This document shows positions 6,678 to 19,869 of a stretch of 26,081 nucleotides of DNA, in pieces. A program made the translations under genes and the position numbers. Numbering within the stretch: the first letter of the stretch is position 1; the number at the start of each line of letters is the position of its first letter. This DNA comes from a virus: the IMG/VR virus record IMGVR_UViG_3300021335_000074, positions 1-26,081 of that record. The stretch is one strand, 5' to 3'. The notes under the pieces are model-generated. The model did no database searches. It saw only the letters and a list, made by a program, of their open reading frames with translations, and was not told where the DNA came from.

Positions 6678-7518
6678 GATGTATTTTACTTTTTAACTTA
6701 TTAACTTCGTCAAGTAATTCTCCCTTGTCGATTCGAGGAACAATCGCTTTCACAATAACAATAGCATTACCTTTTCTTCCGTTTCGCGGGTTTGGCATTC
6801 CTTTCCCACGTAGATTAAATTTCGCGCCTGGATTTGTGCCTGGTGGTATTTTAACATTAAGTGTTGCTCCGTCAAGCATTTTTACATTTACTTGACAGCC
6901 TGTCATTAAGTCAAATACACTAACGGATTCTTCGCAATATAAGTCGTCGCCTTGTCTTAGCCATTTGTTGTGTTGTTTGATTCTTACTTTAACAAGTAGA
7001 TCACCTCTAGGTAATCTGTTGTCTCTATCATCTCCTAAGTTTGCATATCTAACAGTTTGTCCTGCTTGTACGCCTGCAGGTAATGTAACAGTTACTTGCT
7101 CGACCTTACTAGATCCAGTTTGATACTTTAATGGAACAGTGTGTCCACTAAACGCTTGTTCTAATGTAATGTCAGTAACAATCTGTATGTCTCTATTTGA
7201 ACGTTGTCGCTGCTGTCCTCCAAATCCTTGTCCAAAAAATGATGAGAACATATCATTCATGTCAGCACCACCAAACCCAAAAGGATTTTGAGCAAAACCC
7301 TGAGGGCCCATCTGTTGTGGATCGTCAGTGCCATACTGATCGTACATTTGTTTGCGTTCAGAATTACTTAGTGTCTGATATGCTTGATTTATTTCTTTGA
7401 ATTTAACTTCATCACCCCCACGATCAGGATGATGTTTCATAGACATTTTTTTGTATGCCTTACGAATTTCGTCTTGAGACGCTGTTTTGTTGATTCCGAG
7501 TGTGTTGTAGTAGTCCAT
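6667..7518 (-). CDS. dnaJ: DnaJ-like co-chaperone (type II, no zinc finger)
   Basis: A 283-residue Hsp40. The J-domain covers residues 1-65, with the HPD motif at 30-32 that stimulates the ATPase of DnaK. A Gly/Phe-rich linker follows (about 70-105, e.g. NPFGFGGADMNDMF and FFGQGFGGQQ), then the two beta-barrel client-binding domains (about 108-265) with TLPAGVQAGQTVRYANLGD and KIPPGTNPGAKFNLRGKGMP. The four CxxCxGxG zinc motifs of DnaJ are missing, so it is CbpA-like. It should work with the host DnaK in the cytoplasm, perhaps in virion assembly or replication-complex remodelling. The start ATG at 7518 has no Shine-Dalgarno site and lies within a 9-bp stem (see that entry), unlike the other genes here. 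The neighbour clpA also acts in proteostasis. An alternative start further in would destroy the J-domain, so the start is firm. Confidence 0.96.
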   Translation of the reverse strand: MDYYNTLGINKTASQDEIRKAYKKMSMKHHPDRGGDEVKFKEINQAYQTLSNSERKQMYDQYGTDDPQQMGPQGFAQNPFGFGGADMNDMFSSFFGQGFGGQQRQRSNRDIQIVTDITLEQAFSGHTVPLKYQTGSSKVEQVTVTLPAGVQAGQTVRYANLGDDRDNRLPRGDLLVKVRIKQHNKWLRQGDDLYCEESVSVFDLMTGCQVNVKMLDGATLNVKIPPGTNPGAKFNLRGKGMPNPRNGRKGNAIVIVKAIVPRIDKGELLDEVNKLKSKIHLDF

Positions 7519-7542
7519 ACAATTACTTATCGCATGGACTAC
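7510..7542 (-). promoter_or_regulatory. Inverted repeat burying the dnaJ start codon
   Basis: In the mRNA, the 9-nt arm GUAGUCCAU pairs perfectly with AUGGACUAC, whose first three bases are the dnaJ start codon; the loop is 15 nt (7519-7533). No purine-rich ribosome site is present in the loop. On the minus strand no T-run follows, so it is not a terminator. It could control translation, for example as an RNA thermometer or by coupling to passing ribosomes. Confidence 0.6.
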
Positions 7543-7550
7543 TTAGTGTT

Positions 7551-12750: not shown

Positions 12751-12782
12751 CTAAATTTTAACTACATTTAATTTAGATTTTT
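12751..12782 (+). terminator. Candidate AT-rich terminator of phoH
   Basis: CTAAATT (12751-12757) and AATTTAG (12770-12776) form a 7-bp inverted repeat with a 12-nt loop, followed on the plus strand by ATTTTT. The stem is AT-rich and therefore weak. It lies inside the 3' end of the convergent deaminase gene. Confidence 0.35.
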
Positions 12783-13197
12783 CCAAAAAATCAATACCCT
12801 GTGTACTACGATATTCATTTTTGTAGTACACAGTGGTTATACCACTTTGGTAAATTAATTTTGCACATTCTATACAAGGCGAATGTGTAATAAAAATACT
12901 AGCGCCTTCACCGCTTTCTGCTGAACGTGCTAATTTAGCAATGGCGTTCGATTCGGCATGTAGAACTTCTGTCTTAGATTTTAGTTCGTATTTTGCATCA
13001 CTAGATCTATTACCATAGTCAACTAATACTTCTTCCTCGCATTCATTAGTCCAACCACTAGGCATACCATTATAACCTATACTTATAATACGGTCGTCCT
13101 TTACAACAATCGCACCTACCTGCAAACGCTTTGCCGAACTTAGTTGTGCGAAACGTTCTGCAACATCCATGTACGCATCGATAAATTTTTGCTTCAT
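12751..13197 (-). CDS. Deoxycytidylate (dCMP) deaminase
   Basis: The product is 148 residues from the ATG at 13197. That ATG follows the upstream stop by one base and has AGGAAG 11 nt above; a GTG at 13209 is possible but sits directly on the ribosome site. The zinc-binding and catalytic motif of cytidine/deoxycytidylate deaminases is complete: HAE at 80-82 (H80, E82) and SPCIECAKL with C108 and C111. GAIVVKDDRIISIGYNGMPSG (28-48) is typical of T4/eukaryotic-type dCMP deaminase. The reaction dCMP to dUMP supplies the substrate for the ThyA encoded two genes upstream. It is the last gene of the nucleotide operon. The extra zinc site of T4 Cd cannot be judged. Confidence 0.93.
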   Translation of the reverse strand: MKQKFIDAYMDVAERFAQLSSAKRLQVGAIVVKDDRIISIGYNGMPSGWTNECEEEVLVDYGNRSSDAKYELKSKTEVLHAESNAIAKLARSAESGEGASIFITHSPCIECAKLIYQSGITTVYYKNEYRSTQGIDFLEKSKLNVVKI

Positions 13198-15475: not shown

Positions 15476-15610
15476 CTAACCTCCTATTACAGAGTACAAA
15501 ATAATCAAAACAAATAAAGCCCACATAACAATGCCGACTTTAAACATTTGCTCGCTTTTCTTTTTACCTGCGATCAAACCCATCTTTTTTAATTCTTTCC
15601 TTAAATTCAC
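15476..15610 (-). CDS. Small single-TM protein, 44 aa
   Basis: The frame begins with GTG at 15610, overlapping the clamp-loader stop as GTGA, and ends with TAG directly before the ferredoxin ATG. An ATG ten codons in (15583) is the alternative start. The product has a basic N-terminus (RKELKKMGLIAGKKKSEQ) and one membrane helix (about 25-43, GIVMWALFVLIILYSVIGG). The AGGAGG site of the ferredoxin lies in its last codons. No homologue is recognised. Its perfect fit into the space between two real genes supports it. Confidence 0.6.
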   Translation of the reverse strand: MNLRKELKKMGLIAGKKKSEQMFKVGIVMWALFVLIILYSVIGG

Positions 15611-16521
15611 AATCTCGCTAGTTTAATTAGCACAGCGGCTAAATTAATTTCAGGATCTACGACCAATGTATGATCTACCATCCCTTGCTTAATAATTATC
15701 ACTGCTTGATCTTGCTGTTCCTCGTTTCCGAACAATTCAATGTTATCATAAAGCCAGCGATATACTTCTTCCATTTCTTCTGGGCGAATGGCACCACACA
15801 AAAGCCTTCGTGCTTCTTGAATCTTACCTGCTTTAAACAGCTCAACCATATCAAGTTTCCAGTCGCTTTCGCCTGTGTCACCTTCATTAGGTTTGTTTAA
15901 CGCACCGTCTACACTGTTCATTTGTACAGTGTTAATACATTTACGTAAGTCTGGATAAGTTGCTTTTACATAGGTATCGAGCGTATCCAAATCAGGAGTA
16001 ACACCTTCGGTAATAAGGATTTCAGCAACTCTAGCCGTGAACTCAGTTTGGTCAATCCTAGCAATGTGGAAGCCCTGACACCTACTATGCAAAGCGGGTA
16101 TAATACGATTTGGATAGTTACAAGTAAGAATGAAACGAGCAGTAGTATGATACTCTTCCATAACACCACGCAACGCTGCCTGAGCGTTTGGAGATAAGTA
16201 ATCAGCCTCATCAAGTAGCACCACCTTAAAGTCCCCAAATGGGATCATCTGTACAAAGTTTACAATTTTATCGCGAACATCATCTACAGAGTTTGTTCGC
16301 GATGCGTTAATTTCTAAAATGTCTAACTCATTTATATCTAATTCATTAAACAACAATTTTGCAAGTGTAGTTTTACCAATACCTGCATTACCACTAAACA
16401 GTAAATGTGGAATAGTTTTGTCTTTAATCCAAGTTTGTACTTGTTTACGTTGTGCTTCGTCACGAAACACATAGCCATCTACTGTTTTAGGACGATACTT
16501 TTCTACCCAGAGTTCTTTCAT
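15607..16521 (-). CDS. 44: Sliding-clamp loader ATPase subunit (T4 gp44-like)
   Basis: A 304-residue AAA+ protein of the RFC/gp44 group. Motifs are ELWVEKYRPKTVDGYV (3-18, the RFC box), Walker A GNAGIGKT (44-51), Walker B VVLLDEADYLS (100-110) and SRCQGF (146-151), the SRC arginine-finger motif of clamp-loader subunits. The C-terminal part is helical, as in the collar domain. It loads the gp45-type sliding clamp onto primed DNA together with a gp62-like partner. Neither gp45 nor gp62 is in the window; in T4, gene 62 follows 44 directly, but here a 44-residue membrane protein does. The start overlaps the small upstream gene by ATGA, with AGGAAAG before it. Confidence 0.95.
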   Translation of the reverse strand: MKELWVEKYRPKTVDGYVFRDEAQRKQVQTWIKDKTIPHLLFSGNAGIGKTTLAKLLFNELDINELDILEINASRTNSVDDVRDKIVNFVQMIPFGDFKVVLLDEADYLSPNAQAALRGVMEEYHTTARFILTCNYPNRIIPALHSRCQGFHIARIDQTEFTARVAEILITEGVTPDLDTLDTYVKATYPDLRKCINTVQMNSVDGALNKPNEGDTGESDWKLDMVELFKAGKIQEARRLLCGAIRPEEMEEVYRWLYDNIELFGNEEQQDQAVIIIKQGMVDHTLVVDPEINLAAVLIKLARL

Positions 16522-16679
16522 CTACTTTCCTGTTCTAATCTAAATTGACAATAATAATTCATCCAAACTTCGTATGCTACATATGCTATTATAGCACCAA
16601 ATACTGGTACTGTAAAGAAGTTTATCAACATAAAATATGCAAACACAACTGCCGCTATATAATCATACCATCTAATCAA
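16518..16679 (-). CDS. Small membrane protein, 53 aa, TTG start
   Basis: The frame begins with TTG at 16679, overlapping the exonuclease stop as TTGA, and stops by an ATGA overlap with the clamp-loader start. It fills the gap exactly. An internal ATG at codon 17 is the alternative start. The product is very hydrophobic (YIAAVVFAYFMLINFFTVPV and FGAIIAYVAYEVW), probably two short or one hairpin membrane segment, with a charged tail (QFRLEQESR). No function is recognised. Confidence 0.6.
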   Translation of the reverse strand: MIRWYDYIAAVVFAYFMLINFFTVPVFGAIIAYVAYEVWMNYYCQFRLEQESR

Positions 16680-17215
16680 CGTGTTATACCTAGTTCTTTG
16701 TATGCAAGTTGTACACCTCTTGCCTGAAAATAAGCGTCAGCAAGAGCATTATGCAGGTCTGCTTGTCCTAGTACTTTACGTGGGTCTGTTTTACAACAAC
16801 TAAAAAGTGTTCTGCTATCTTTTACTTGCCAAAATTGCCAAGGAATAGGTTTACCAGAACCTCTACACATATCTTCAAGTATTGTAAGATCAAAACCATA
16901 ACCCTGACCCAAGATAGTATCTACACCAACTACCCATTTTGATAGTTGTTTTAATGCTTCTTCGACACTGATCGAACCCGTTTGATCAAAGGCTTCATTT
17001 CTTGCTTTTTCGTCTTGTTTAGCCCACCATTCAATAGTATCATCACTTATTGTTCGACCTAAACGATCCTGGTCATCTACACAAATTTTAAAGTATAGTT
17101 CTGAATGCGGTTCGCTTGCATCAAAAGGATTAAATTTAATTGCACCTAAACTTAATACTACACAACTAGGTTTAGTGTCTAGTGTTTCAAGATCGATCAT
17201 TGCATGTGTAGCCAT
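16676..17215 (-). CDS. dexA: DEDDh 3'-5' exonuclease, T4 DexA-like
   Basis: A 179-residue exonuclease. D8 and E10 (MIDLETLDT) form motif I, D109 (GYGFDLTIL) motif II, and H155 to D160 (LHNALADAY) motif III, giving the DEDDh set of DnaQ-like enzymes. VLSLGAIKFNP and DDTIEWWAKQDEKARNEAF are blocks shared with T4 exonuclease A (DexA) and the related Rv2179c-like family. It removes nucleotides from 3' ends of DNA or RNA; T4 DexA prefers single-stranded DNA. AGGAAG lies 6 nt before the ATG, and the start overlaps the stop of the small upstream gene (TAATG). Confidence 0.88.
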   Translation of the reverse strand: MATHAMIDLETLDTKPSCVVLSLGAIKFNPFDASEPHSELYFKICVDDQDRLGRTISDDTIEWWAKQDEKARNEAFDQTGSISVEEALKQLSKWVVGVDTILGQGYGFDLTILEDMCRGSGKPIPWQFWQVKDSRTLFSCCKTDPRKVLGQADLHNALADAYFQARGVQLAYKELGITR

Positions 17216-17379
17216 TATTTCTTCCTATTCTCTTGTCCAATACCAGATACAATTAAAAACACGTATAACAATGGCCAAGCCCAGCCAGATAAGTATCCTG
17301 TAATATGTAGTGCCATTAAAGTTATACCAGTTAAACCAGTAGTTCCAACGCCACTACTTTGCGGTGTAGGAAATTTCAT
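17215..17379 (-). CDS. Small membrane protein, 54 aa
   Basis: The frame runs from ATG 17379 (ATGA overlap with the HAD gene stop) to TAA at 17215-17217 (TAATG overlap with the exonuclease start). The product has a Gly/Thr-rich start (PQSSGVGTTGLTG) and a hydrophobic stretch (about 18-46, TLMALHITGYLSGWAWPLLY then VFLIVSGIG), probably two membrane passes, ending in QENRKK. The double overlap strongly supports a real gene. Function is unknown; it is not an obvious holin. Confidence 0.65.
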   Translation of the reverse strand: MKFPTPQSSGVGTTGLTGITLMALHITGYLSGWAWPLLYVFLIVSGIGQENRKK

Positions 17380-17960
17380 TTATTTTCTCCTGTAACTATA
17401 TCGTAAATTTCACCCCAATTTTTAACTCTTGTAAAAGAGTCATCGTGCATGTTATATCCATGCTCCATAACCAAAGGACGTAAACCTACGTTAGCACCTG
17501 CTTGTGCATTTTCTACTTTATCTTCGATCCACCAAAGATTGCTTCCTTCAAATTGTTCTAGTACTTTGTCTTTATCGGCACCAGTACCTAAACAAATTAA
17601 TTCTTTAAATGTGCCTTCACCAAAAACTTTATCTAAATTCTTTTTACGTAACTTTTGTGCATATTTGTTTTTGCTAAGGCTTGTAATACAAATAAATTGC
17701 CAACCTTCGTCTGCTAGTTTAGTAACATATTCTACTGCATCACGTAAGGCCGGTAAAAAACCAATCATGGCACTTTCATTAAAATGCCTGATCATAGTAT
17801 GTCCTTGATTATTAGAGATATTATAACGCTCGCCAATGTTGTACAACAATCTTGCACCCTTAACCTCTTTGAAACCATGCTCTTCCATGTATAGGTTGAA
17901 TGCATATTCCCAATTAAATAAGACGCCATCTGCGTCCACTAACATTGTTTTTTTCATCAT
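17376..17960 (-). CDS. HAD-superfamily phosphatase, 5'(3')-nucleotidase-like
   Basis: A 194-residue HAD protein. MLVDADGVLFNW carries D9 and D11, the nucleophile and acid/base pair. FICITSLS (89-96) is motif II, the K130/K132 region motif III, and WWIEDKVENA (143-152) motif IV with E146 and D147. The pattern resembles deoxyribonucleotidases of the 5'(3') type, which would release phosphate from nucleotides; substrate is inferred from the operon. It is the first gene of the replication/nucleotide operon. Its own sigma70-type promoter lies just above. The ribosome site GAGAGG is one arm of a 10-bp inverted repeat, so translation may depend on which promoter made the mRNA. Two ATGs stand side by side. 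Confidence 0.85.
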   Translation of the reverse strand: MMKKTMLVDADGVLFNWEYAFNLYMEEHGFKEVKGARLLYNIGERYNISNNQGHTMIRHFNESAMIGFLPALRDAVEYVTKLADEGWQFICITSLSKNKYAQKLRKKNLDKVFGEGTFKELICLGTGADKDKVLEQFEGSNLWWIEDKVENAQAGANVGLRPLVMEHGYNMHDDSFTRVKNWGEIYDIVTGENK

Positions 17961-18018
17961 AAAGCCTCTCTTGCCTAATATTTTACTTACTGTATTATAT
18001 TAGCATCAGAGAGGCTTT
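17961..18018 (-). repeat. 10-bp inverted repeat around the HAD gene promoter
   Basis: AAAGCCTCTC (17961-17970) and GAGAGGCTTT (18009-18018) are perfect complements with a 38-nt loop. On the minus strand the promoter-distal arm lies between the -35 and -10 boxes, and the proximal arm contains the ribosome site GAGAGG next to the ATG at 17960. Only RNA that comes from further upstream contains both arms. Confidence 0.75.
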
Positions 18019-18025
18019 TTGTCAA
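17994..18025 (-). promoter_or_regulatory. Sigma70-type promoter of the replication/nucleotide operon
   Basis: A perfect -35 TTGACA lies at 18020-18025. At 17-bp spacing follows TAATAT (17997-18002); a perfect TATAAT at 17994-17999 has 20-bp spacing. The likely start of RNA is near 17985-17990, about 25-30 nt before the HAD gene ATG. Suited to early transcription by host polymerase. Confidence 0.75.
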
Positions 18026-18040
18026 GTGTTTTTTAAAAAT

Positions 18041-18460
18041 TTATATGAAAGTTGCAAGTTTGGGGGCTTGCCAATTTTTAGGTTTTAGAACTTTGCCGTC
18101 TTCTCGTTTGATAACTTTACCAGTATTAGGGTCAATTTTAGCAAAGTTTGTACTCATAACTTCTTTCCACGCTGCTTCGCCGTTGAATCCACCTGAGTGT
18201 ATGGCACCAATTGTAACCACTAAGATGTCAATTAGTGCATCTAATTGTTCAACACGATCGTGTCCTTGAAGAGCTACATCTAGTTCTTCTACTTCTTCTT
18301 TGATCAAATCTAGATACATATCATATTGATCTGAATTATATTGATTAGTAGTTTGATCACACGCTTGCATAAATTTTTCTTGATCTGCAAAGGGTGTAAC
18401 TTCTACATTTACGTTATTTTGTTCTCTAGTTTCTGCTGTTGGTCCGTAATGAACGCCCAT
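18041..18460 (-). CDS. MazG-like nucleotide pyrophosphohydrolase
   Basis: A 139-residue protein of the all-alpha NTP pyrophosphohydrolase group. LIKEEVEEL (52-60) is the EExxE-type metal motif, and VEQLDALIDILVVTIGA (70-86) supplies the second acidic set, with D74 and D78. The C-terminal part (WKEVMSTNFAKIDP, DGKVLKPKNWQAP) occurs in phosphoribosyl-ATP pyrophosphatase-like phage and bacterial proteins. It probably splits an NTP or dNTP into NMP and pyrophosphate. Marine phages often carry MazG relatives, with roles proposed in dNTP sanitation or alarmone control. AGAGG lies about 6 nt before the ATG. It closes the gene set below the GroES-like gene, at 10 nt. Confidence 0.9.
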   Translation of the reverse strand: MGVHYGPTAETREQNNVNVEVTPFADQEKFMQACDQTTNQYNSDQYDMYLDLIKEEVEELDVALQGHDRVEQLDALIDILVVTIGAIHSGGFNGEAAWKEVMSTNFAKIDPNTGKVIKREDGKVLKPKNWQAPKLATFI

Positions 18461-18470
18461 TGTTTACCTC

Positions 18471-18851
18471 TTATTGATTTATAAATGAACTAGGGTCGAT
18501 AGTAGCATGTTCACCATCGCCGTATTCTGCTCCAATTTGAACAGAATTTGGTTTTTCGTTTGCCCAACCCAAAACAGATTCAGCTTCTGCCATTCTGAGT
18601 TCAACATCGTTTAATTTAAATGCTCGAGTCCAGCGACCATGTTCGATAAGAATCCAATCGTCTACTTGATACTCGTCATTATTTTCTGGTCCTTTAGAAT
18701 GTACTTGTCCCCAACGTGGGTAGATACCACGAGTTTTTCCATCATCGCTGCTGATAATTAGACCACTTGCGGTTTGTTGTTCTCCGAAGTACATATTTTT
18801 AATAAGGACACGATTGCCAATAGGCTCTGCTACTCCTTCGAAAGATTTCAT
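18471..18851 (-). CDS. GroES-like co-chaperonin (T4 gp31-type)
   Basis: A 126-residue protein of Cpn10 fold. VAEPIGNRVLIKNMYFGEQQ leads to a mobile loop (about 22-36) with TASGLIIS, the counterpart of the GGIVL segment that binds GroEL. GIYPRWGQVHSKGPE and YQVDDWILIEHGRWTRAF (61-78) match the beta-barrel of GroES/gp31, and ELRMAEAESVLGW closes the domain. T4 gp31 replaces GroES so that host GroEL can fold the large capsid protein; the same role is likely here. About 25 extra residues follow at the C-terminus (NSVQIGAEYGDGEHATIDPS). AAAGG lies 9-10 nt before the ATG. With DnaJ and ClpA it makes three protein-folding factors in this genome segment. Confidence 0.88.
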   Translation of the reverse strand: MKSFEGVAEPIGNRVLIKNMYFGEQQTASGLIISSDDGKTRGIYPRWGQVHSKGPENNDEYQVDDWILIEHGRWTRAFKLNDVELRMAEAESVLGWANEKPNSVQIGAEYGDGEHATIDPSSFINQ

Positions 18852-18854
18852 TTT

Positions 18855-19277
18855 TTAACTACCTTTTTTTACAAAATTGCCGTCGTTGTCTTCAACCCAT
18901 TCGTCGTCCATATCTTCAAACATTTCTTGTTCATCTTTAGACAACTCAGCTTCTTCTACTTTTTGCTGGGCTTTAGAAGTTTTTTTAGTACTTGCCTTTG
19001 GCTTTTCTTTTGTTTCAACCTGTGCAGTACTTACTGGCGCTGCTAAATGACTTGGTTCATCAGCAACTGGCATTGAAGAATTGTTATAATAGTCTTTAAT
19101 AACATCTTCACGCTTTTTAATAATTTTACCGCCAGGGCCTAATTCGTCGCCACGTGCATTTACACGCACATTGCCTACTGCCGGAGTAAGTTCATTTCTT
19201 TTGCGTAGTAAGTCCATATCAATTTGCTTACCTTGCATTGTTGTATAGGTCTTTTGACCTTTTTGTCTTTGTGCCAT
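18855..19277 (-). CDS. Conserved phage protein, charged tail, 140 aa
   Basis: The N-terminal part (TMQGKQIDMDLLRKRNELTP, AVGNVRVNARGDELGPGGK and IIKKREDVIKDYY) is a pattern I recognise from conserved proteins of T4-like marine phages. The C-terminal half is low-complexity, first Lys/Ser/Thr-rich (EKPKASTKKTSKAQQK), then acidic (EQEMFEDMDDEWVEDNDG), and probably disordered. AGGAG lies 8 nt before the ATG, and the gene has its own late promoter box (19304-19311). Late expression next to the GroES-like gene fits a head-assembly or virion role, but I cannot name the function. Confidence 0.8.
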   Translation of the reverse strand: MAQRQKGQKTYTTMQGKQIDMDLLRKRNELTPAVGNVRVNARGDELGPGGKIIKKREDVIKDYYNNSSMPVADEPSHLAAPVSTAQVETKEKPKASTKKTSKAQQKVEEAELSKDEQEMFEDMDDEWVEDNDGNFVKKGS

Positions 19278-19303: not shown

Positions 19304-19311
19304 TATTTATC
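19304..19311 (-). promoter_or_regulatory. Late promoter box GATAAATA
   Basis: GATAAATA on the minus strand, 27 nt before the ATG at 19277 and overlapping the stop codon of the DnaE-like gene. It can drive the conserved protein, the GroES-like gene and the MazG-like gene as one late unit. Confidence 0.65.
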
Positions 19312-19834
19312 TCAAGAACTCACGCCAGTCTAGGCCATATTGGATTGAATTTATCTTATGTACTCCTATCAAATATAACACATAACTAGCAACACTTGAT
19401 CCTCTGCCTACACCCCATACAATGTTATTCTCACGCATAAAATCTACAAGATAAATCATATAGCGTAATAGTGGATACATATCACGTTGTTTATATGCTT
19501 CTAATTCTTCTAAGCACCTAGCCCACTCTGTTGTAAGTTTGCCGCCTATCTTACCTAATAAATGTGCTTCAACATCTAGCTCTTTATATTCATCAGGCAT
19601 AAACCATTCACTTTGACATACATTGTCAAAAGTCTTTTGATCTACATCTAATGGAATGTACTTTTGTAGTTTGTCAAAGCCTTGCTCTTCCATAGCAGTA
19701 TTGAACTTGTCTACATCGTCGTTTGCATCGCACAATACCACATGGACTTTATCCGCATGACCACTATAGATCATATCGATCAAATCGCGATTAGAGAATC
19801 GTGGAATACCTAGTTCGTCTGTTTTCATAAGCAT
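19307..19834 (-). CDS. DnaE-like fragment without polymerase active site, 175 aa
   Basis: Residues 137-175 resemble bacterial DNA polymerase III alpha (DnaE): NIVWGVGRGSSVASYVLYLI, then GVHKINSIQYGLDWREFLR. In DnaE the motif GxGRGSxxxSLVAYxLGI...LFERFLN precedes the catalytic aspartates. Here the protein ends exactly at the ERFLN equivalent, so no catalytic residue is present. The middle (DEYKELDVEAHLL, EELEAYKQRDMYPLL, YMIYLVDFM) matches the helical region before it in DnaE. The first 60 residues look unlike DnaE. No frame below the stop continues the polymerase, so this is a compact protein and not a broken gene. ATG 19834 or 19828 may start it; neither has a ribosome site, and a near-consensus sigma70 promoter would start RNA at about 19834. 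Confidence 0.75.
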   Translation of the reverse strand: MLMKTDELGIPRFSNRDLIDMIYSGHADKVHVVLCDANDDVDKFNTAMEEQGFDKLQKYIPLDVDQKTFDNVCQSEWFMPDEYKELDVEAHLLGKIGGKLTTEWARCLEELEAYKQRDMYPLLRYMIYLVDFMRENNIVWGVGRGSSVASYVLYLIGVHKINSIQYGLDWREFLR

Positions 19835-19840
19835 ACAAGT

Positions 19841-19869
19841 ATTTTAACTGATATTGATTAAATTGTCAA
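19841..19869 (-). promoter_or_regulatory. Sigma70-type promoter of the DnaE-like gene
   Basis: TTGACA (19864-19869), a 17-bp spacer and TAAAAT (19841-19846) on the minus strand: one mismatch to the full consensus. The predicted RNA start, about 7 nt below the -10, falls on or next to the ATG at 19834, so the mRNA would be leaderless or start at the second ATG with a 6-nt leader. It overlaps the end of the 77-residue gene. Confidence 0.7.

Follow-up and report, generated by a model that had tools for sequence, protein, structure and literature searches.

Known systems in which the RNA start decides translation

In IS10 and IS50, read-through RNA from outside folds and hides the ribosome site of the transposase gene, whereas RNA from the internal promoter does not, an arrangement that shields a mobile element from chance promoters. 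Translation control by a promoter placed within a hairpin has been described for genes e, soc, 49 and I-TevI of phage T4 (PMC3014915). RNA arriving from upstream of these genes buries the Shine-Dalgarno (SD) sequence or start codon in a helix, and transcripts begun at the inner promoter, which do not carry the 5' strand of the helix, are translated. The inner T4 promoters are late (TATAAATA), the silenced RNA is early, and the genes guarded are lysis, head and endonuclease genes. In Bacillus subtilis, a hairpin of 20 bp or more has been proposed to block translation of sigG from spoIIG-operon read-through RNA (PMC5942855); transcripts begun at the local promoter are unable to form it. sigG is a host sporulation gene with a sigma-F/sigma-G promoter, and we found neither a family with covarying arms nor a phage early/late setting described for its hairpin in the literature consulted.

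The locus analysed here probably works in a similar way, with translation depending on where the RNA starts: RNA from the operon's own promoter would be translated, and read-through RNA would hide the SD of the first gene. The principle is already known from T4 e, soc and 49 and from sigG; what is new is the use of a sigma70 promoter spacer as a hairpin arm, the proposed reversal of timing, and the extent of the phenomenon.

A promoter inside an inverted repeat

The window, the whole stretch of 26,081 nucleotides analysed here, is a ~26-kb fragment of a T4-related phage whose minus strand carries nearly all genes. A gap of 80 bases between a MazG-like gene and a HAD/NT5C gene holds a promoter and an inverted repeat. 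On the minus strand, 5' to 3', this element reads TTGACA AAAAGCCTCTCTGATGC TAATAT AATACAGTAAGTAAAATATTAGGCAAGAGAGGCTTT ATGATG. The features of the junction are as follows.

19841-19869, minus: sigma70-type promoter TTGACA-17-TAAAAT before a 175-aa polymerase-like gene (pol175); possible source of early read-through
19304-19311, minus: GATAAATA, a late promoter motif of T4/cyanophage type (motif as in PMC2984593), upstream of g140
18471-19277, minus: GroES-like gene and g140, a co-directional read-through unit with gaps of 3-10 bp
18041-18460, minus: MazG-like gene, directly upstream of the hairpin; putative source of read-through RNA
18020-18025, minus: -35 hexamer TTGACA, just outside the hairpin
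18008-18018, minus: distal (5') arm AAAGCCTCTCT, the anti-Shine-Dalgarno arm, within the 17-nt promoter spacer
17997-18002, minus: -10 hexamer TAATAT, in the 5' half of the hairpin, with the extended TGC at 18005-18003
17992-18003, minus: inner 5' arm CTAATATAATAC, overlapping the -10
17988-17992, minus: predicted transcription start region (~17990), in the hairpin loop, placed by its distance from the -10
17975-17986, minus: inner 3' arm GTAAAATATTAG of the inner repeat
17961-17971, minus: proximal (3') arm AGAGAGGCTTT, ending at the ATG and containing the SD GAGAGG (17970-17965)
17376-17960, minus: HAD-type 5'-nucleotidase gene (NT5C, Pfam PF06941), first gene of the operon; T4 30.2-like by the annotation of its phiM12 homologue
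17215-17379, minus: TM54, a gene for a 54-aa membrane protein that overlaps the stop of HAD; in most relatives it leads the operon
16676-17215, minus: Rv2179c-like exonuclease gene (exo), overlapping TM54
16518-16679, minus: 53-aa ORF bridging exonuclease and clamp loader and overlapping both
15607-16521, minus: clamp-loader ATPase gene, an operon member linked by the 53-aa ORF

The promoter (TTGACA-17-TAATAT, 18025-17997) has 10 of 12 matches in addition to the extended TGC. The initial annotation had described a promoter within a perfect 10-bp inverted repeat whose proximal arm carries the ribosome site of the HAD gene, GAGAGG. The promoter does lie inside the repeat and the site does lie in the proximal arm, and the element is stronger than that account suggested. 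The outer repeat (18018-18008 / 17971-17961) is perfect over 11 bp, not 10, and 93% matched over 14 nt, with a gap of 36 nt; an inner repeat of 12 nt (83%, 5-nt loop) makes the stem longer. The predicted start falls in the 5-nt loop of this inner repeat, so both 5' arms lie upstream of it and both 3' arms downstream. As had been proposed, RNA from the local promoter would thus lack the 5' arm and leave the ribosome site free.

As at sigG, the upstream unit is co-directional with the operon, and on the window's minus strand no intrinsic terminator was called in the interval from MazG to the promoter. From HAD through TM54, exonuclease and the 53-aa ORF to the clamp loader, successive genes overlap stop to start.

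The 175-aa ORF (pol175; 19307-19834, minus) matches a DNA polymerase III alpha-like profile in part only. It is present in syntenic relatives, where the conserved sigma70-type promoter before it sits inside the end of g77.

Predicted folding and chance expectation

Minus-strand RNA from 17950-18045 folds at -25.9 kcal/mol (z -6.05), a value that none of 200 shuffles reached; overall, fold z values for the hairpin range from -6 to -7, and it ranks second among the most stable 70-nt stretches of the window's minus strand. Perfect repeats of at least 11 bp are not rare per se (three in the window, 0.9 expected). In 20,000 shuffles, the promoter spacer never attained an 11-nt run of pairing with the SD/start region. 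A chance origin of the hairpin is rejected by both the fold and the spacer shuffles. No Rfam family matched the element site up to E 1.

Folding both possible RNAs, the check proposed in the initial annotation, separates them clearly. The predicted cost of opening the stretch from SD to AUG is 18.4-18.9 kcal/mol in read-through RNA versus 2.9 kcal/mol in RNA starting at ~17990. The ribosome site is thus predicted to be paired in upstream RNA and free in inner-promoter RNA, as in T4 e, soc and 49.

The element belongs to a junction

Judged by gene order, the element belongs to the junction between MazG and the replication operon, and not to HAD. HAD homologues at 78-81% identity (L003-L008) keep TTGACA-17-TATAAT and lack SD-hiding arms; four others (L011-L014) likewise keep the promoter with arms that do not pair. 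In the two contigs where this could be checked (L004 and L005), HAD lies far from MazG. A conserved block, present whole or in large part, runs struct1125-struct204-g77-pol175-g140-GroES-MazG, then, across the junction, (HAD)-TM54-exo-clamp loader-Fdx-DHFR-ThyA-dCMP deaminase-PhoH. The arms occur at this junction whatever gene leads the operon: HAD in the window and L171, the exonuclease in L244 and L246 (directly behind the element, with one further gene between in L246), and TM54 in most. HAD homologues were therefore rejected as a comparison set; they are misleading because most lie at other genomic places. The expectation that the arms would be conserved as a pair wherever the promoter is kept fails among L003-L008 and L011-L014 and holds at the syntenic junction, an outcome that depends on the comparison set because the element belongs to the junction.

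The carriers are uncultured T4-related bacterial viruses, probably of marine origin. No DNA similarity to the locus was found in INPHARED, no HAD in the genome contigs and no TM54 in cultured phages; around the HAD genes of C48C1, DLP6 and phiM12, gene orders differ. The window's own subtype is represented by only two sequences in IMG/VR, and an exact 23-mer of the window found its sole match among viral contigs in the L002 contig. This closest relative (L171/L002, HAD 87% identical) has a 15-bp stem, CATAAAGTCTCTCTT/AAGAGAGGCTTTATG. Three positions of its 5' arm are changed relative to the window; on the mRNA strand, and only there, these changes preserve the pairing or lengthen it to 15 bp.

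Covariation of the arms among relatives

Searching with the TM54 alignment yielded 80 loci, and 62 distinct elements were compared. Long arms, in which the promoter spacer pairs with the leader and SD, are present in 46 of the 62 distinct promoters at the junction; roughly one related promoter in four has weak arms or none, and some TM54 loci with HAD upstream have weak TM54 arms. The -35 sequence TTGAC[A/T] is invariant across the 46 long-armed elements. In every one of the 46, the 3' arm includes the SD and the predicted start lies downstream of the entire 5' arm, so that, as at sigG, the promoter lies within the repeat and its own RNA, with a leader of 15-30 nt, would lack the 5' arm. A typical element (L263) reads TTGACTCCTTAGCATTTATACGTTATAATATGTATAAAGCTAAGGAGTTTTCATG, with the -35, the spacer as 5' arm, the -10 in the loop and the leader as 3' arm.

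The initial annotation had called for compensatory arm changes in related phages, and the junction class has them. RNAalifold found no structure in the mixed alignment (A2) because the TTGACA class misaligns there; the analysis was therefore restricted to the TTGACT class (A3, 34 elements). In A3, 91.6% of cells are paired versus 35.8-48.9% with the partners slid, and 78 double-change cells are spread over nine pairs. Pairing is thus kept through compensatory changes in the junction class, as in the T4 elements, and in two sequences for the window's subtype. A covariance model of the TM54- and exonuclease-first elements (R1) places the element at the junction in ~40 loci, with weaker ones at other genes. 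Its match to the window element is not significant (rank 9, 7.8 bits, E 7.5), so the window and L171 form a divergent subtype, tied to the rest by position and architecture and not by sequence.

Departures from perfect pairing indicate which molecule carries the structure. The arms were aligned as DNA palindromes, which does not favour wobble, and on the mRNA strand 48 departures are G-U and six A-C (p 3e-9, unclustered). After clustering the counts are 22 versus 3 at 85% and 13 versus 1 at 80%; at the coarsest clustering the difference is weaker (p 0.02-0.03). As read from this substitution pattern, natural selection acts on pairing in the mRNA, and not on a DNA dyad or an antisense RNA.

The arms could instead form a DNA dyad spanning the -10, either a cruciform or an operator for a dimeric regulator, with RNA pairing incidental. 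They do straddle the -10, and in some promoters (L005, L008, L013 and L349) the -10 is flanked by palindromes that do not involve the SD. The G-U excess is not expected from DNA symmetry, however, since at an operator A-C and G-U departures would be equally frequent; moreover, arm sequences vary freely among relatives, and those of the window are 36 bp apart. We regard this explanation as very unlikely.

The same wobble bias, lying on the mRNA strand, weighs against the idea that the hairpin terminates plus-strand (antisense) transcription coming from the PhoH side. The plus-strand stem of the window is slightly more stable (-27.8 kcal/mol, z -8.2) and is followed by TTTTTG, but its L171 counterpart has an additional A-C mismatch and TTTATG in place of the T-run, and in relatives where both strands match the covariance model the plus strand scores lower. 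Such a role is highly improbable.

Stems beside ribosome sites can also be operators, as at T4 gene 43 (PMC3014915), and the hairpin might be a regulated translational operator on read-through RNA, bound by a protein or sensing temperature, instead of a constitutive block. Apart from the pairing, the SD and the promoter, however, neither arm sequences nor loops are conserved, and the sole loop motif is the -10, which leaves this reading scarcely any probability.

Termination and related designs

A further alternative is that the hairpin is a terminator or attenuator specific to read-through, where upstream RNA stops at a U-run, internal RNA continues, and burial of the SD is a by-product. TTTT lies within 2 nt of the SD arm in 26 of the 46 relatives, and terminators do occupy related positions. 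At the MazG | clamp loader junctions of L104 and L159 and before HAD in L036-L049, the SD hairpin gives way to a GC-rich terminator that has the -35 hexamer as its loop. In L159 it reads AAAGGGTC TTGACA GACCCTTT CTTTTT, followed directly by TATAAT. These terminators appear to share the task of stopping the upstream transcription that feeds the operon, with a restart at TTGACA-17-TATAAT; they differ in halting RNA synthesis, not translation, and in holding the -35, not the -10 and start, in the loop. In the promoters of DNA-ligase-like genes (L125:764-815 and L102:1091-1142), the -10 occupies the loop of a perfect stem; a T-run follows this stem, which does not include the SD.

The window itself argues against termination. 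It and L171 have only UUU before the AUG, the stem being followed by UUUAUG, and no terminator-like site, with a GC-rich stem and U-run, was called on the window's minus strand. The U-run is absent in 20 of the 46 relatives (for example L163-L165, L183, L186, L256, L262, L300 and L314); all 46, by contrast, carry the SD in the 3' arm. We therefore consider termination an unlikely, although the least improbable, alternative; partial termination may add to the effect in the 26 relatives with a U-run, but not in the window. The promoter-in-hairpin, terminator and ligase designs seem to serve one purpose in different ways, namely to insulate the gene from transcription arriving from upstream.

Proposed mechanism

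We return to translation that depends on the RNA start. Polymerase at the embedded host-type (sigma70-like) promoter would make a ~30-nt leader without the 5' arm, leaving the SD of the first gene free. RNA entering from upstream, from the structural genes and g140-GroES-MazG, would carry the promoter spacer as RNA; the spacer would pair with the leader through the 11-bp stem and the inner stem and bury the SD. The replication operon would then follow its own promoter only. Through the stop-to-start overlaps from HAD to the clamp loader, the block may spread by translational coupling. Silencing, timing and start site are what we infer from the computed anatomy, stability, covariation and promoter motif classes.

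The element differs from T4, sigG, IS10 and IS50 in promoter class, use of the spacer as an arm, timing, genes guarded and number of covarying examples. In contrast to T4, its 17-nt promoter spacer provides the 5' arm, its inner promoter is TTGACA-17-TAATAT and not a late motif, late motifs lie upstream, and replication genes are guarded. Unlike IS10 and IS50, it sits at a fixed phage operon junction.

Timing of the upstream promoters

T4-like cyanophages use NATAAATA as their late promoter motif (PMC2984593). The form [T/G]ATAAATA precedes struct204 in 45 of 52 loci and g140 in 26 of 64 (~2 expected each), and was never found before HAD, TM54, exonuclease, clamp loader or MazG in the loci scanned. 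In the window, GATAAATA stands before the tail connector, struct1125 and g140, and NATAAATA is absent between the arms of the element. By contrast, TTGAC[A/T]-17-TAnnnT precedes TM54 in 59 of 62 loci and pol175 in 61 of 65. A gp55-type late sigma is encoded in G010 and G011, two long contigs with the element, and in G007 (L019); the other 12 of the 15 contigs searched, many of which are fragmentary, yielded no such sigma.

Late transcripts coming from g140 would continue across GroES and MazG and enter the operon. The upstream late-type motifs, together with the late sigma in two element-bearing long contigs, support late read-through, and with such motifs feeding the upstream unit, late read-through mRNA would be expected to make no replication proteins. 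On these motif assignments, the claim that the T4 order is reversed, with late read-through silenced and the early transcript active, is plausible. Its restriction to late RNA needs qualifying: pol175 has an early (sigma70)-type promoter, so early read-through would be blocked too, and the hairpin would block any read-through, not only late. Switching off the whole operon late, as also proposed, would rest on early promoters fading late and on translational coupling.

How common the arrangement is

Among 157 sigma70-type promoters of the loci compared, five hide the SD by at least 8 kcal/mol (0.3-0.6 expected) and 15 by at least 6 kcal/mol (~4 expected). At the 6 kcal/mol threshold, two long contigs have 3 of 19 and 1 of 9 sigma70 promoters of this kind, with 0.1 and 0.0 expected. 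A 142-aa gene in L347 (G013) and L350 (G009), MTMHLVGPYMTTTNYKKRK..., also starts behind a promoter in an SD hairpin.

With less assurance than for the mechanism, we lean towards a broader reading in which gating by transcript origin is an undescribed, widespread device in uncultured T4-related phages. The spacer would serve as an antisense arm when transcribed through, relatives would swap this design with a promoter-in-terminator at the same junction, and, in the reverse of the T4 order, early replication operons would not be expressed from late read-through RNA.

Early and late phage genes are arranged head to tail, with few terminators, and how early genes stay silent under late read-through is rarely asked. 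Dozens of natural covarying arm pairs make start-dependent translation directly testable. The compact rule of a spacer complementary to the downstream SD offers a way of finding it in other genomes, and the element is a ready design for read-through-proof promoters.

Other hairpins at gene starts and ends

Several further structures were observed. In L352 (G017:30000-31500), on the reverse strand near 31196-31238, a hairpin AAAACTCCT/AGGAGTTTT with a late-like GTTAAATA in its loop precedes a 256-aa ORF, resembling the order of T4 gene e within the same phage group. In the window, the start codon of DnaJ (7507-7550, minus) falls within a strong hairpin, AGTAGTCCAT/ATGGACTACT. Its loop carries a late-motif variant, GATAAGTA, and the arrangement may represent a T4-e-like late promoter or a thermosensor. 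Tried as a second test case, this hairpin was not clearly conserved in relatives at 40-45% identity. In the DnaJ homologues of L341 and L342 (around position 1000), TTGACA-17-TATAAT ends almost at the ATG, and pairing of the spacer with codons that follow the start (AACG[T/C]CT../..AGGCGTT) places the AUG in a loop. Near the 3' end of the dCMP deaminase gene (window 12782-12851), beside the convergent PhoH, lies an 11-bp perfect stem, CTGTGTACTAC/GTAGTACACAG, possibly a shared 3'-end structure.
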